From contig JAJYQJ010000091.1 in NCBI GenBank assembly GCA_021794655.1, positions 1-39,267 on the forward strand: 39,267 nt of DNA, written 5' to 3'. The stretch is from Actinomycetes bacterium. GTDB taxonomy: Bacteria; Actinomycetota; Acidimicrobiia; Acidimicrobiales; RAAP-2. Below are positions 2,742 to 34,602 of this stretch, in pieces; the first letter of the stretch is position 1; the number at the start of each line of letters is the position of its first letter. Under the pieces are notes generated by a model that made no database searches, was not told the DNA's origin, and was given only the letters and a program-made list of their open reading frames with translations. The position numbers and the translations under genes are program-made.

Positions 2742-3010
2742 CTTACCATACACTGTCAGGGCGTGCAAGGGCGGCCAACGCCGGCGGTGGGTGGCAAAAC
2801 GGGCGTCCGCGAAGAAATCTTCGCTGAAGGCCTCGACTTTGCGGCCCGATCGAACTCTCCTCCCTCGTTTGAGGCGCTCTCCCGGCCGCAGGGCACAGAA
2901 CCCATGTTGCAAAACCCGACGTCGGCGGCAACTTCGGTGCGCCTCGGCACCAAACTGACCGCGGTCCAGGACTCCCTGCATCCCAACTTCGGCATGCCGA
3001 GGCGCCCTTC

Positions 3011-3070
3011 GGCTGCCCTGTGTGCGGCTGCCCTGTGTGCGGCTGCCCTGTGTGCGGCTGCCCTGTGTGC
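3011..3070. repeat. 15-bp tandem repeat, four perfect copies
   Basis: The unit GGCTGCCCTGTGTGC repeats four times without mismatch, followed by a decayed fifth start (GGCTGACCGG). It lies in non-coding DNA upstream of tetR and downstream of the XRE gene. Confidence 0.95.
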
Positions 3071-3155
3071 GGCTGACCGGCGTGTGCTGGTGCTACTACT
3101 CCGCGAGCACCAAGTGTGATGACGCTCACGGAGAGATGACGGAGGAACTCGATCC

Positions 3156-4004: not shown

Positions 4005-4053
4005 CCGGTCGCCGGTCGCCGGTCGCCGGTCGCCGGTCGCCGGTCGCCGGTCG
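4005..4053. repeat. 7-bp tandem repeat, seven perfect copies
   Basis: CCGGTCG repeated seven times in the spacer between smpB and tmRNA (both minus strand), starting 15 bp past the smpB stop codon. If smpB and ssrA are co-transcribed, the array would be transcribed. The unit is not a multiple of three, consistent with non-coding placement. Confidence 0.97.
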
Positions 4054-4657: not shown

Positions 4658-5110
4658 GTGCTCAAGTTATCCCGTGAGATCTACGTCCAGATGGTCGCCC
4701 ACTGCATAAAGGGACTGCCCGATGAAGCGTGCGGCCTCCTCGCGGGCGACCCGGGGGAGGCCGAGGTGATGCGGTGCTACCCGACGAGAAACCTCGCGGC
4801 GTCCGCACGGGTCTATACGGTAGATCCAAAGGACCACCTCATCGCCGACCGCGACGCGGAGCGCGACGGCCACGAGGTGATCGGTGTCTTCCACTCTCAC
4901 ACCCACACCGACGCCTACCCTTCGCAGACCGACGTCGACCAAGCACCCGATCCGAACTGGCACTACGTCCTCGTGTCGTTGCGCGACACCCATCCGGTCG
5001 TACGGAGCTACTCGATCGTCGACGGGACGATCAAAGAGGAGTCGGTAGTCGTTCTTTCGGCGAGCGGCTCGGACCCCCAGGAGCGCGAGGCTGAGAGAGT
5101 CCCGGTATGA
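4658..5110 (+). CDS. mec: CysO-cysteine peptidase, JAMM/M67 metalloprotease (Mec)
   Basis: 150 residues with the full JAMM zinc site: catalytic Glu23 in PDEACGLLAG, and H79-x-H81-x7-S89-x2-D92 in HSHTHTDAYPSQTD. In M. tuberculosis Mec cleaves cysteine from the C-terminus of the sulfur-carrier protein CysO after CysM has built it there. The next two genes here are cysO and cysM, so the whole route is present. I chose GTG 4658 (MLKLSREIY) because it fits family N-termini and lies 7 nt after a TACAAT -10; ATG 4649 is the alternative. The stop codon lies inside the first copy of a 14-bp tandem repeat. Confidence 0.92.
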   Translation: MLKLSREIYVQMVAHCIKGLPDEACGLLAGDPGEAEVMRCYPTRNLAASARVYTVDPKDHLIADRDAERDGHEVIGVFHSHTHTDAYPSQTDVDQAPDPNWHYVLVSLRDTHPVVRSYSIVDGTIKEESVVVLSASGSDPQEREAERVPV

Positions 5111-5170
5111 AAGTCCCGGTGTGAAAGTCCCGGTGTGAAAGTCCCGGTGTGAAAGTGCCTGTATGAAAGT
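5101..5170. repeat. 14-bp tandem repeat, five copies, spanning the mec stop codon
   Basis: Units CCCGGTATGAAAGT / CCCGGTGTGAAAGT (x3) / GCCTGTATGAAAGT, then a partial CCCGGCAT. The first copy contains the mec TGA. Every copy contains TATGA or TGTGA, so each carries an overlapping start and stop codon. Confidence 0.95.
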
Positions 5171-5244
5171 CCCGGCATAACCGAGCTTTTTGGGCCGCGT
5201 CGACGTCGAACTCGCCTGAAAGGCGGCTTGCGTCCGCGACCCGG

Positions 5245-23069: not shown

Positions 23070-24061
23070 CGGAGTTCAGAGCCCCGCGCCACTTGCTCTC
23101 TATCGACGACTTGGGTGCGAACGGCATCAGGGAAGCGATGAGCCTCGCCGAGGCGTTTGCAGAGGTCGAGCGTCGTGTAATCCCGAAGGTTCCAGCACTC
23201 AGAGGAAAGGTAGTTGCGACGCTGTTTTTCGAGGACTCGACGAGAACGAGGCTCTCCTTCGAGTCTGCCGCGAAACGCCTCTCTTGCGACGTCCTAACGT
23301 TTAACGCCGGTACGTCGTCGCTCAAGAAGGGTGAGTCGTTGAGGGACACCGTCGAGGTCATAGAGGCGATGGGCGCCGACGCAGTAGTCATACGTCACTC
23401 GTGTTCTGGGACGCCGGTTCAAGTATCGCGCTGGGTGAGCCGTGCGCGGGTGATAAACGGAGGGGACGGGTCACACGAGCACCCTACACAGGCGCTCGCT
23501 GACTGCCTGACGGTCCGCCAGGTCATCGCAGAGCGCCAAGGCGTCGAGCCGGACTCGTTGGGTGTCGAGTGCTTTAACGGCCTGAGGGTGCTCATCGTCG
23601 GCGACATCGCTCACTCACGAGTCGCACGGTCTCAAGTGTTGGCGTATACGACCCTTGGAGCACGGGTGACACTGTGCGCTCCAGGCACGTTGCTCCCGGG
23701 AAACGTCGAGTCGTGGCCGGTAGGGGTAGCGGGGGATCTCGACGCAGCTATCAAAGAAACCGACGTCGTATCCTTGCTGCGCCTGCAGCGCGAACGTGGC
23801 TCGGGAACCTACGTTCCCTCACTTCGTGAGTACACCCAGGGTTGGGGGCTGACTGCGAGGAGAGCGTCTCTACTGAAGAAAGAGACGATCATCACCCATC
23901 CGGGTCCGATGGTGCGAGGCGTCGAGATCGCGAGCGACGTCGCCGATATGGAACAAAGTGTCGTCAAGCGCCAGGTAACCAACGGCGTCGCGGTGAGAAT
24001 GGCCGTGTTGTTCCTCCTCCTCGCCACAAGCGACGCACGAGGAGGTATTCAACGTGGCTGA
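23066..24061 (+). CDS. pyrB: Aspartate carbamoyltransferase catalytic subunit
   Basis: 331 residues. First committed step of UMP synthesis: carbamoyl phosphate plus aspartate. Carbamoyl-phosphate loop [19 protein letters not shown] at about 54-72, [11 protein letters not shown] around 139-149, and the C-terminal [17 protein letters not shown] overlap with pyrR and an 8-bp overlap with pyrC. No pyrI regulatory subunit is present, as usual in this operon type. Confidence 0.97.
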
Positions 24062-25370
24062 GGGGCCCTTAAAGCTGTGCGTCATGGGTGGAACGCTCGT
24101 CGACTCGACCGGCGTACGGCGTGGGGACGTCTGCATAACAGGGGACGTCATCGTCGAGGTAGGCGCTGACTTGGAGCCGCCCGCCGGCTCGACGGTGCTC
24201 GACGCGTCCGGGTGTCTCGTTACCCCTGGACTCGTCGACTTGCATACCCACCTGCGCCAGCCGGGCGCCGAAGAGGCCGAGACGGTCGAGACCGGATCCC
24301 GGGCTGCAGCCCTCGGCGGCTATACCGCAGTCGTCGCGATGCCAAACACCGACCCACCGGTAGACAACGGGGCGGTCGTCGCCGAGGTCTTGGAGCTATC
24401 GAAGAACGCTCTCGTCGAGGTCGGTGTCGCCGGCGCGATCACGGTCGGGCGGGCCGGTGAACGCCTCTCTTTGATGCGCGAGCTCGCGGCCCTCGGGGTG
24501 AAGCTCTTCACCGACGACGGAAACGGCGTCCAAGACGGAGGGTTGATGAGGCGGGCTTGTGAGTACGCGGCCGGCCTCGGCGTTACCCTCGCCCAGCACT
24601 GCGAGGACGAGAGGATCGCGGGATACGGCGTTATGAACGAAGGAGTCTGGTCGTCGAAGCTGGGCCTCCGAGGGACTCCTGCGGCCGCAGAAGACACGAT
24701 GGTCGCGCGAGACATTTCTTTGGCCCGCTTGACCGGGGCGAAGGTCCATTTCATGCACCTGTCGTGTGCGAGTTCGGTAGAGCTCGTGCGTCTCGCGAAG
24801 GCCGAGGGTCTTTCAGTTACCGCTGAGGTGACACCTCACCACATGGTCTTGACCGACGACCTCGTTCGTGACTACGACCCTGTCTTCAAGGTCAACCCAC
24901 CGTTGAGAGGTGTCGACGACGTCGCCGCGATCAGAAGAGGTCTTCGTGACGGAACGATCGACGCGATCGCTACCGACCACGCGCCACACTCCCCGGAGTC
25001 CAAACAGCTCCCCTTTGACGACGCGCCACCCGGCATGATCGGACTACAGACCGCCCTAGCGGTGAGCTACGACACACTTTTGTCGAATGAGAATCACCCC
25101 TCTTTCAGTCAGCTGCAAGAGTTCTTCGCTCTCTTCACCTCACGGCCTGCACGGATCGCGGGCCTAAGTGCCCAAGGCGGGCCACTTTCGAAAGGGTCAA
25201 TCGCAAATATCTGCGTTTTCGACCCAGACGAGAGATGGACGGTAGAGAGCGACTCCCAGGCCTCCAGGAGCCGCAACACTCCCTTCGCCGGCAGGTCGCT
25301 GAAAGGAAGGGTTCGCCACTGCATCCTAAGAGGAGAACCGACCGTTGTCGACGCGGTGGCGCTTCGATGA
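24054..25370 (+). CDS. pyrC: Dihydroorotase
   Basis: 438 residues; GTG start overlapping pyrB. Closes carbamoyl aspartate to dihydroorotate. Class I (long) type with metal site VDLHTHLRQPG at about 61-71, later ligands in LAQHCEDE, HFMHLSCASS and ATDHAPHSPESK (about 305-316). No insertion or missing ligand seen. The stop codon overlaps the carA ATG (ATGA). Confidence 0.97.
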   Translation: MAEGPLKLCVMGGTLVDSTGVRRGDVCITGDVIVEVGADLEPPAGSTVLDASGCLVTPGLVDLHTHLRQPGAEEAETVETGSRAAALGGYTAVVAMPNTDPPVDNGAVVAEVLELSKNALVEVGVAGAITVGRAGERLSLMRELAALGVKLFTDDGNGVQDGGLMRRACEYAAGLGVTLAQHCEDERIAGYGVMNEGVWSSKLGLRGTPAAAEDTMVARDISLARLTGAKVHFMHLSCASSVELVRLAKAEGLSVTAEVTPHHMVLTDDLVRDYDPVFKVNPPLRGVDDVAAIRRGLRDGTIDAIATDHAPHSPESKQLPFDDAPPGMIGLQTALAVSYDTLLSNENHPSFSQLQEFFALFTSRPARIAGLSAQGGPLSKGSIANICVFDPDERWTVESDSQASRSRNTPFAGRSLKGRVRHCILRGEPTVVDAVALR

Positions 25371-29976: not shown

Positions 29977-30930
29977 GTGAGGAAGCGACTCTTCAGTGGT
30001 CACGACCGAGACGTGTCTTTGGAGACTCGAATCGGCTCCGTCACGTTGCCGAACCCAGTGATGACCGCCTCTGGTACGAGCGGGCACGGTAGCGAACTAG
30101 CCGCCTTCGCCGACTTGAACGACCTCGGCGCCGTCGTCGTCAAATCGCTCTGCGCTACTCGCTTTAACGGTAACGACGCCCCCCGGCTCTACCCGCTGCC
30201 CGTCGGGATGCTCAACAGCGTCGGACTCCAAGGTCCAGGGCTGAAGGCCTGGATCGAACACGACCTCCCAGCAGCCGCACGCAACGCAGAGCGGATCGTC
30301 GTGAGTATATGGGGGAGAACGGTGGAGGACTACGCGAAGGCGGCCGCGATTCTGAAGGGTTCGCCTGCAGTAAAGAGGTCGGTGATCGCCGTCGAAGTGA
30401 ACGTGAGCTGTCCAAACATCGAAGACCGTTCCCGGATGTTCGCACACTCCGTGACAGCGACGAGCGAGGCGGTCGCCGCCGCAGAGTGTGGGCTGCCGCG
30501 TTGGGCGAAGCTCAGCCCGAACACCCATGAGATATGCGAGGTCGCCGCCGCCGCCCTTCAAGCCGGCGCCGAGGCGTTGACCCTCGTCAACACCGCGATG
30601 GGAGTCGCCGTTGACGTCGAGAGGAGGAGTGCCGTGCTCGGCGCTGTCGGAGGGGGACTCTCAGGGCCCGCGCTGAAGCCGATCGCGATGAGAGCGGTCT
30701 GGGAGTGCCGGGACGCCTTTCCCGACGCGAGCATCATCGGCGTCGGCGGCGTCGCCTCCGGAGTCGACGCGTTGGAGATGATCATGGCTGGTGCAAACGC
30801 CGTCCAGGTCGGAACTGCGACGTTTCGGGATCCGAGGGCGCCGTGGAAGGTGATCTCTGAAATTCGGAGTTGGTGCAAGAAGAACGGAGAGACGAGATTG
30901 GAAGACCTCGTCGGCGTCGCCCATGCCTGA
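29977..30930 (+). CDS. pyrD: Dihydroorotate dehydrogenase, class 1 type
   Basis: Up to 317 residues. FMN barrel oxidising dihydroorotate to orotate. The core begins SLETRIGSVTLPNPVMTASGT; the catalytic base lies in VEVNVSCPNIEDRS, with Cys (about residue 145) as in class 1 enzymes rather than the Ser of membrane-bound class 2. GGGLSGPALKPIAM and GVGGVASGVDALEMIMAGANAVQVGT bind the FMN phosphate. Two GTG starts are possible: 29977 (used here) and 30013, closer to the family N-terminus; neither has a good ribosome binding site. No pyrK electron-transfer gene is next to it. Confidence 0.92.
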   Translation: MRKRLFSGHDRDVSLETRIGSVTLPNPVMTASGTSGHGSELAAFADLNDLGAVVVKSLCATRFNGNDAPRLYPLPVGMLNSVGLQGPGLKAWIEHDLPAAARNAERIVVSIWGRTVEDYAKAAAILKGSPAVKRSVIAVEVNVSCPNIEDRSRMFAHSVTATSEAVAAAECGLPRWAKLSPNTHEICEVAAAALQAGAEALTLVNTAMGVAVDVERRSAVLGAVGGGLSGPALKPIAMRAVWECRDAFPDASIIGVGGVASGVDALEMIMAGANAVQVGTATFRDPRAPWKVISEIRSWCKKNGETRLEDLVGVAHA

Positions 30931-31888
30931 GGGACCCGTGTCCGAGGAGCGCGTGGCTGAGGGGTCTATGCCTGAGGGGTCTATGCCTGAGGGGTCTATG
31001 CCTGAGGGGTCTATGCCTGAGGGGTCTATGCCAGTGAAGAGAGACTTAACGGTCGCGAACTTCGCAGAGAAACTGTCGACAGCGACTCATGCGACGGGTC
31101 CGTTGTGCCTCGGGGTCGACCCGTCGTCGCAGCTGCTTGACAGCTGGGGGATCGACGACTGCGTCGACGGACTCCGTCGATTCTGTGATCGATCTCTCGA
31201 GGCGTTCGTCGGAACCGTCGGCGTCATCAAAGCTCAGGTCGCGTTCTTTGAACGGTTCGGAGCTCGCGGCATCGAAGTTCTCGAATCGTTCATCCAAACT
31301 GCCAGAGGCTCTGGAGTTTTCGTGATCGCAGACGCGAAGCGCTCAGATATCGCCTCGAGTGCCGAGGGCTACGCACAGGGGTGGCTCGACGACGACAGCC
31401 CGCTGTGTTCGGACGCGCTGACCGTCGTCGCTTACATGGGGCTCGGCGCGCTGAGCCCCATCATCGACAAATCCGTATCGGGTGGAAAAGGAGTTTTCGT
31501 TGTCGTTCGTTCGAGCAATCCAGAGGGCCGCTCGATCCAGGAGGCAACCGGAACTGACGGAGTGTCAGTTGAGGACCGACTCCTGGCCGAGATAGCCGCG
31601 TTCAACGGCAAGATCGGCTTGGAACTCGGACCGCTCGGAGCCGTCGTCGGGGCGACGTTGAAGCCTTCGAATTTCGAGTTATCCCAGTTGAAAGGGGTGT
31701 TCCTAGTGCCAGGCATAGGAGCTCAGGGGGCTACGTTCAAAGACGTCGAGGCGCTGTTCAAGAGCGCTCCGACCGGCTCGGTACTACCCGTCGTCGCCCG
31801 CTCGGTGCTCGCAGAGGGCCCCGACGTAGAGCGCCTGCGAGCCGCAGCGGAGCGGGCCCGCGACGAGGCGATAGAGCGCTTAACGTGA
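30923..31888 (+). CDS. pyrF: Orotidine 5'-phosphate decarboxylase (type 2) with repeat-encoded N-terminus
   Basis: Up to 321 residues from ATG 30923, overlapping pyrD by 8 bp. Last step to UMP. The catalytic core starts around residue 38 (KRDLTVANFAEKL); substrate and catalytic residues are in LCLGVDPSSQLL, VGVIKAQVAFFERFG, the Asp-Lys-Asp site DAKRSDI at about 137-143 and LVPGIGAQGA near the end. Before the core lie five identical pentapeptides (EGSMP) from a 15-bp DNA repeat. Each repeat contains GAGGGG and an in-frame ATG, so any of five internal starts could yield a protein without some or all of the repeats. Confidence 0.94.
   Translation: MPEGPVSEERVAEGSMPEGSMPEGSMPEGSMPEGSMPVKRDLTVANFAEKLSTATHATGPLCLGVDPSSQLLDSWGIDDCVDGLRRFCDRSLEAFVGTVGVIKAQVAFFERFGARGIEVLESFIQTARGSGVFVIADAKRSDIASSAEGYAQGWLDDDSPLCSDALTVVAYMGLGALSPIIDKSVSGGKGVFVVVRSSNPEGRSIQEATGTDGVSVEDRLLAEIAAFNGKIGLELGPLGAVVGATLKPSNFELSQLKGVFLVPGIGAQGATFKDVEALFKSAPTGSVLPVVARSVLAEGPDVERLRAAAERARDEAIERLT
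30957..31031. repeat. 15-bp tandem repeat, five perfect copies, inside the pyrF 5' end
   Basis: Unit CTGAGGGGTCTATGC. In frame it encodes EGSMP repeats. Each copy holds a ribosome-binding-like GAGGGG 3 nt before an ATG in the pyrF frame. Confidence 0.98.
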
Positions 31889-33288: not shown

Positions 33289-34602
33289 GTGAGCAGCGAG
33301 TCCGAACTGGGGAAGCAGGAACTGGGGCGACCTGAACTGGGGCGACCTGAACGCCGACGAATAGTTCTTGGGGTCTCAGGCGGGATAGCTGCATACAAGG
33401 CAGTCGAGCTGTGCAGGAGACTCGTGGACAACGGTTACTTCGTGACCCCGGTCCTGACCCACAGCGCGACGCGCTTCGTTGGCGCGGCGACGTTCTCTGC
33501 GCTCGCATCAGAGCCCGCACGTACGAAGCTCTTCGATGATTCAAGAGGCAACACCAGCGCTCTCACGCCGATCGTACACACGCGCCTCGGCCAAGAAGCC
33601 GACCTGGTGTTAGTAGCGCCGGCGACCGCACATCTCCTCGCACGCTACGCGACGGGGATGGCCGATGACTTGTTGACAACGACCCTCCTCGCGACTCGCT
33701 CACCAGTGATCGTCTGCCCGGCGATGCACTCTGAGATGTGGGATCACCCTGCCGTTCAGGAGAACCTCTCGATTCTCGCGAGCCGGGGGGTGATCGTCGT
33801 TCCTCCAGCTGAGGGTAGGTTGGCCGGGGGCGACGTTGGGATGGGACGACTCGCTGATATCGAAGCAATCCTGGAGCGTGTGGAAGACGTAGTTGGCTCA
33901 GGTGCTGCGTCGACTCGAAGAGAGTTGAGTGGAGTACGGGTCCTCGTGAGTGCCGGAGGCACCCGTGAGCCGATCGATCCTGTTCGCTTCATATCGAATC
34001 GCTCTTCTGGAAAGCAAGGCCACGCGCTCGCCGAGGAAGCATATCTCCGTGGCGCTGAAGTGACTCTCGTCACCGCGTCACGCCTTGGGGCGACTGAGGG
34101 AGTAAAGGTTGTCCCGGTCGAGACCGCTTCTGAGATGGAAGAGGCGATGATGAAAGAGGCGCCTATGGCCGACGTCGTTATCATGGCCGCAGCGGTCGCG
34201 GACTTCAGGGTGAAGACTCCTCGTGGCGAGAAGATCAAGCGCTCCGACGGTACTCCTGAAATCCTCCTCGAACCCACCCCCGACATCCTCGCTAAGTTGG
34301 TCAAGTGTCGCAGGAGCGGCCAGGTGCTGGTAGGGTTTGCCGCCGAAACGAGCGACGTTATCGAACGCGGCCATGAAAAGCTGGTTCGAAAGGGCGTCGA
34401 CATCTTGGTGGTAAACGACGTTTCAACTCCGGGAGCTGGATTCGATCACGATACAAATGCGGTATCTATTCTGGGGCCCGGAGGAGTCGTCCACGAAGTC
34501 GCTTTGGCGACGAAAAGACGCGTCGCAGGTGTAATCCTCGATAGGATCGCGCTCGAGTTGAACAAGAGGAGCAAGACGATGGAGAAAGAGGCGAGCTCAT
34601 GA
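33289..34602 (+). CDS. coaBC: Bifunctional phosphopantothenoylcysteine decarboxylase / phosphopantothenate-cysteine ligase
   Basis: 437 residues; GTG start. Two steps of coenzyme A synthesis. CoaC flavoprotein half (about 22-195): [48 protein letters not shown] (the PxMNxxMW motif with His for Asn). The E. coli Dfp loop with Cys158 (ACGD) reads LAGGD here, so that cysteine is absent; I believe related actinobacterial proteins also vary. CoaB half (about 215-430): [43 protein letters not shown] and KSKRS-like KIKRSDG. The first 20 residues come from a 15-bp tandem repeat. The stop overlaps metK (ATGA). Confidence 0.95.
33304..33348. repeat. 15-bp tandem repeat, three copies, in the coaBC 5' end
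   Basis: Units GAACTGGGGAAGCAG, GAACTGGGGCGACCT, GAACTGGGGCGACCT, then a partial GAAC. In frame they encode [15 protein letters not shown] before the flavoprotein core. Confidence 0.93.

Follow-up and report, generated by a model that had tools for sequence, protein, structure and literature searches.

The window, the whole stretch of 39,267 nucleotides that was analysed, contains the pyrimidine operon ORFs pyrB, pyrC, carA, carB, pyrD and pyrF, followed by mihF, gmk, rpoZ, coaBC and metK, of which mihF, gmk, rpoZ and coaBC lie downstream of pyrF on the same strand. The names of pyrF, pyrD, pyrC, mihF and gmk were checked with Pfam, and those of pyrF, pyrD and mihF also with NCBIfam; the remaining operon names (pyrB, carA, carB, rpoZ, coaBC, metK) were read from translations. 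mihF encodes an integration host factor of the actinobacterial type (NF041260), which together with the gene order of the operon indicates an actinobacterium. pyrD, encoding dihydroorotate dehydrogenase (PF01180, E 1e-61; NF005574, E 3e-92, above cut-off), occupies positions 29977 to 30930 on the forward strand, which also carries the junction features described below, and ends with TGA at 30928-30930. pyrF, encoding orotidine-5'-phosphate decarboxylase, extends in its longest form from ATG 30923 to 31888. Its identity was established by the equivalog TIGR02127 (E 4e-71; residues 47-308) and by PF00215 (residues 60-307), and the alignment with the best solved relative, 3v75_A, begins at residue 43.

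pyrD and pyrF meet in the start/stop overlap ATGCCTGA (30923-30930; distance -8), so that ATG 30923 lies inside the 3' end of pyrD; it has no ribosome-binding site of its own. Downstream follows a perfect 15-bp minisatellite, CTGAGGGGTCTATGC, which TRF reported as 76 bp at 30957-31032 (5.1 copies, 100% match, score 152) and which encodes (MPEGS)n. The longest self-match run at period 15 was 61 bases, compared with a maximum of 13 when 20 first-order Markov resamples of the window were scanned at periods 6-30. Head-to-tail repetition is therefore well above chance, as in coding minisatellites (VNTRs). An earlier note had described five tandem GAGGGG-plus-ATG modules at the start of pyrF. GAGGGGTCTATG was indeed found five times, in register and in the frame of the ORF 30923-31888, and the array proved larger than described, with three degenerate units upstream that raise the number of starts to eight. 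These 15-bp units (30923-30967) read ATGCCTGAGGGACCC at 30923, GTGTCCGAGGAGCGC at 30938 and GTGGCTGAGGGGTCT at 30953, with three, seven and two differences from the consensus and with ATG, GTG and GTG as starts, and GAGG occurs in each. They are older than the exact array.

In total, eight in-frame pyrF starts are present between 30923 and 31028, two of them GTG (30938 and 30953), and GAGG is located 5 nt upstream of every array start except the first. The three degenerate units carry 12 substitutions between them, yet each has retained its start codon and GAGG; this could reflect selection, although the motif was chosen post hoc. TGA in the pyrD frame recurs at 30928, 30958, 30973, 30988, 31003 and 31018. 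The true pyrD stop (30928) is the first of this series, and the exact units contribute one TGA every 15 nt from 30958 to 31018. Because the pyrD-frame TGA is repeated too, each exact unit is a copy of the stop/Shine-Dalgarno (SD)/start junction, in the order start, two bases, stop, SD-like GAGGGG overlapping the stop, spacer and next start.

The period of 15 bp preserves the frame and the ORF 30923-31888 is open throughout, as expected of a coding minisatellite; in a phase-variable contingency locus a change in copy number shifts the frame, which a 15-bp unit does not do. The proposal that copy number would alter the number of possible starts and the length of the tail without a frame shift was likewise borne out, since each unit adds a start with an SD of moderate strength (-7.7 kcal/mol, RNAduplex). 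The last in-frame ATG of the array (31028) is followed by a leader of about 10 residues (31028-31060) up to the conserved PyrF core at residue 47. As TIGR02127 begins only at this residue of the long form, the (MPEGS)n tail lies outside the enzyme core. A search of genome contigs with the repeat-bearing PyrF N-terminus yielded four loci that resemble it by low-complexity likeness only.

SD energies were calculated with RNAduplex and a textbook anti-SD, as the assembly yielded no 16S 3' end. They amounted to -1.7 kcal/mol at 30923, -6.1 at 30938, -7.9 at 30953 and -7.7 at each later ATG. Among 62 overlap starts (-8 or -4) from the family, a list that includes some out of frame with pyrF (e.g. 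that of locus L049), ATG 30923 had the second weakest SD (median -6.2), and among the -8 starts the weakest. SDs as strong as those of the array are not rare, as 28% of the ATG/GTG codons of the region reach -6.0 and 14.5% reach -7.0. In reporter work, efficient termination-reinitiation was described for start-stop distances of about -8 to +10 nt (PMC10666635), a range into which ATG 30923 (-8) and GTG 30938 (+7) fall. Since only these two starts do so, the ATGs of the array would need de novo initiation. An SD before the downstream start, which is common and not universal in such coupled overlaps, is missing at 30923. Its loss was reported to lower termination-reinitiation in four of five E. 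coli pairs tested (PMC6728339), and translation of the full array from 30923 may hence be inefficient. The region 30880-31080 was predicted to fold no better than shuffled sequences (z 0.74; equal or greater stability in 154 of 200 shuffles), which gives no reason to propose a structured riboregulator.

For comparison, 172 family genomes were searched, including that of the window, which is the only one of its genus among them; a pyrF match was obtained in 165. Analysis was performed on 81 loci, consisting of the window and 80 others (a set of 60, to which 20 from the large genus g10 were added). In 75 of the 81, window included, pyrD lies next to pyrF, and no adjoining pyrD was found beside pyrF in the six loci L090-L095 (five from genus g11, one from g19). 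An in-frame ATG or GTG at the -8 position is shared by 41 of the 75 junctions, again counting the window, and 30923 is therefore likely the ancestral start position. The distance from the pyrD stop to the conserved PLCxGxD motif was 169 nt in the window (median 49 nt, range 31-205 over the 75 junctions). In at least 10 relatives the pyrF start is displaced downstream, in several with a strong SD of its own, so that in the window, too, the main start could lie within the array.

TRF arrays (score of at least 50) were present at seven of the 75 pyrD-pyrF junctions, that is, in the window and six of 74 relatives. No two had similar units, and in-frame pyrF starts are repeated in five of them. The longest of the others (L058) is a 12-bp GTGTCTGAGCCT-type GTG repeat encoding a VSEP tail; its first GTG has a strong SD (-11.8) and the inner GTGs have mostly weak ones, a pattern more in keeping with a tail repeat than with an initiation array. 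The remaining junctions carry a 15-bp GGAGGATCACATGAC repeat of 2.5 copies (L049, genome G045), a 15-bp unit of 2.3 copies around GTGA (L060), a 9-bp GTG repeat (L074), a 30-bp repeat without starts (L067) and a frame-breaking 13-bp GTGCCCGAGTGAA-type repeat (L064, 2905-2943). The last forms tandem start-Pro-Glu-stop mini-ORFs ahead of a displaced pyrF start. A relation between a weak overlap SD and the presence of an array was considered and dropped, as L060 has an SD of -7.4 and the L049 start with -13.9 does not share the pyrF frame.

Array density was 1.41 per kb at pyrD-pyrF, 0.94 at carB-pyrD, 1.03 at rpoZ-coaBC and 0 to 0.15 in gene cores. A hotspot specific to pyrD-pyrF was thus not supported, since other weakly conserved junctions have a similar density. 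In counts, arrays were found at six of 74 carB-pyrD junctions, nine arrays occurred in 57 rpoZ-coaBC junctions and one in 58 pyrF-mihF junctions, and mihF-gmk (59 junctions) and gmk-rpoZ (57) had none. The period was divisible by 3 in 21 of 23 junction arrays. Repeated in-frame pyrD starts were clear in one of the six carB-pyrD arrays (L051, GTG); start-bearing units are therefore not general. Repeat-built N-terminal tails of pyrD were seen at carB-pyrD in L058 (1711-1811), L096 (1827-1925) and L087 (2006-2083), and the tail types of relatives at this junction were GGQDA-, SPTGA- and RDRA-type.

The genome of the window is itself rich in repeats. In a sample of 351,862 bp, window included, TRF gave 78 rows with a score of at least 50 (overlapping rows counted separately), of which 51 had a period divisible by 3, some of them in N-terminal tails of other genes. 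Further minisatellites within the window mark a repeat-rich region: 3010-3075 (15 bp, 4.4 copies), 4005-4053 (7 bp, 7 copies), 5098-5175 (14 bp, 5.6 copies) and, in the N-terminal tail of coaBC, 33319-33352 (15 bp, 2.3 copies). Outside the array, the 16-mer of the unit had four forward and 11 reverse matches in the assembly with up to three mismatches, compared with 16 and 15 for the reversed control. One copy with a single mismatch (C3) and one with two (C75) were inspected and had no recognisable gene-start context. The unit is accordingly not dispersed over several operon junctions in the manner of mycobacterial interspersed repetitive units (MIRUs), and origin from a dispersed element was rejected because matches elsewhere did not exceed the control level.

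Tandem GAGG-N5-ATG did not occur elsewhere in the assembly except for one non-identical pair inside coaBC (34141). Across the family, GAGG-N5-ATG-N3-GAGG-N5-ATG gave 23 rows in 19 of 172 genomes, and the reversed control pattern one. True tandem copies, with identical halves, were present at five loci in the 172 genomes: the pyrF starts of the window and of G045, the starts of a cytochrome P450 gene (G080) and a DUF885 gene (G156), and a site without a long ORF (G056). A second spacing pattern gave twelve rows in nine of 172 genomes, the pyrF of G045 among them, and means little by itself because the reversed control gave a similar or larger count. Four rows of this pattern came from L161 (end of contig C101 in G074), where a short ORF holds a five-unit 15-bp GGAGACCTCGATGTT-type repeat encoding (MLETS)n. 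Duplication of the start module is rare and recurrent, and pyrF was hit twice. Two cases suggest more than chance for one gene among thousands, and they hint at pyrF as a permissive or favoured site, with the small number and the derivation of the pattern from this very locus to be borne in mind.

The array is probably a coding minisatellite of recent date, private to this lineage, which arose from the pyrD/pyrF overlap through slippage or unequal recombination and gave PyrF an (MPEGS)n tail. Anatomy and frame of the array, the homologous position of its first start, the unconserved tail, the repeat-rich genome and the parallel arrays of relatives are the observations behind this reading. The unit would comprise the overlap (ATG..TGA) and the GAGG run, and each added copy would then repeat the stop, the SD-like site and the start. 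Slippage between short repeats such as ATGCC at 30923 and 31028 would yield such a unit. Added copies stay in frame because the unit measures 15 bp, and expansion would be nearly silent because the old coupled start is preserved in the first copy and a start near the enzyme in the last; the additional residues would form a dispensable N-terminal tail. Ribosomes that finish pyrD would most likely reinitiate at ATG 30923 or GTG 30938 and read through the array, and some inner ATGs may initiate de novo, which would produce a ragged set of N-termini. Neutrality, slippage and the choice of start are what we infer. Growth of a minisatellite from the overlap is the cheapest account: it explains why the array keeps frame, why it is private and recent, and why the arrays of relatives are unrelated. 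It leaves the loss of the SD at 30923 and the two RBS-ATG duplications at pyrF unexplained.

These two features are where the tuning idea of the earlier note, recast as a multiplier of initiation sites, gains ground; we regard it as possible and unlikely. Up to seven SD-start pairs would replace the SD-less overlap start, and the PyrF level and the PyrF:PyrD ratio would follow copy number. The weak overlap SD (-1.7, against the median of -6.2), the array SDs of -6.1 to -7.9, the starts and GAGG retained in degenerate units and the independent duplication at pyrF of the relative G045 (L049) are all consistent with it. On the other hand, starts beyond 30938 lie at least 22 nt past the pyrD stop and hence outside the reported reinitiation range (PMC10666635), and ribosomes elongating from upstream starts would cover them. 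SD energies of this order are common in the region, as given above, and the L058 array combines a strong first SD with mostly weak inner ones. Against tuning in particular, unrelated arrays occur at the same junction in six of 74 relatives, and other poorly conserved junctions have them at similar density. Overall, a real effect of the array on translation is improbable, and graded tuning by copy number even less probable. The stronger proposal of a translational rheostat, in which an expandable stop-SD-start row tunes PyrF:PyrD and start-module duplication is a recurrent adaptive route in the family, taken twice independently at pyrF, is rather doubtful.

It is likewise doubtful that translation begins only at the last start or starts near 31028, with the array as an untranslated spacer that a displaced start left behind. 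Displaced downstream starts with a strong SD do occur in L046, L048, L063, L096 and others, and the leader of about 10 residues between 31028 and the conserved core has the usual length of the family. However, all eight units are in the pyrF frame without a stop in that frame, weak evidence with a chance expectation of about one in three, and an untranslated repeat need not keep frame, as the 13-bp units of L064 illustrate. That the copy number is an artefact of a draft, probably metagenome-assembled genome is very unlikely: the assembly has 155 contigs and tandem repeats are known to cause assembly errors (PMC6868369), but 76 bp is well within an ordinary read or read pair, and the repeat lies between diverged units and a unique gene.

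As a coding minisatellite, the array resembles the in-frame VNTRs of bacteria in its short unit, its period divisible by three and its peptide repeat in an unconserved part of the protein; satellites with periods divisible by 3 have been interpreted as coding amino-acid repeats (PMC6749651). Unlike these, the pyrF unit holds a start codon, an SD-like site and the stop of the upstream gene, across an operon overlap. With ATGCCTGA the junction belongs with the termination-reinitiation overlaps of the -8 ATGNNTGA class, reported to rank third in frequency among prokaryotic overlap classes (PMC10666635); it differs from them in lacking the expected SD ahead of its overlap start and in the downstream multiplication of the junction. 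MIRUs are likewise repeats at start codons that keep the downstream gene translationally coupled; they are described as apparently mobile, with an ORF of their own that is coupled at -4 nt (PMC12548453), whereas the pyrF unit is 15 bp long, is not dispersed in the genome and is fused in frame to PyrF. The TAACTGA direct repeats of Beggiatoaceae also lie at the ribosome-binding region and were proposed to affect translation there (PMC4679880). They are 7 bp long, have little SD character and precede the start (PMC4679880), unlike the pyrF array, which repeats the SD-like site and the start codon together. Searches of the open-licence PMC literature, in which exact phrases can miss synonyms, brought up no title or abstract on tandem SD-start repeats at a bacterial gene.

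If the array is a tail repeat only, it represents a neat case of in-frame duplications tolerated across a start codon and of the origin of an N-terminal extension. If it did tune translation, it would control a core biosynthetic enzyme by slippage and in a graded manner, whereas contingency loci are usually described as on/off. For gene finders, the pyrF start is ambiguous at eight places. Elsewhere in the operon, the pyrC start GTGGCTGAGGGG was located at 24054-24065, inside an 8-nt overlap with pyrB, and its 12 bases recur as the degenerate unit that begins the GTG 30953 module of the pyrF array.
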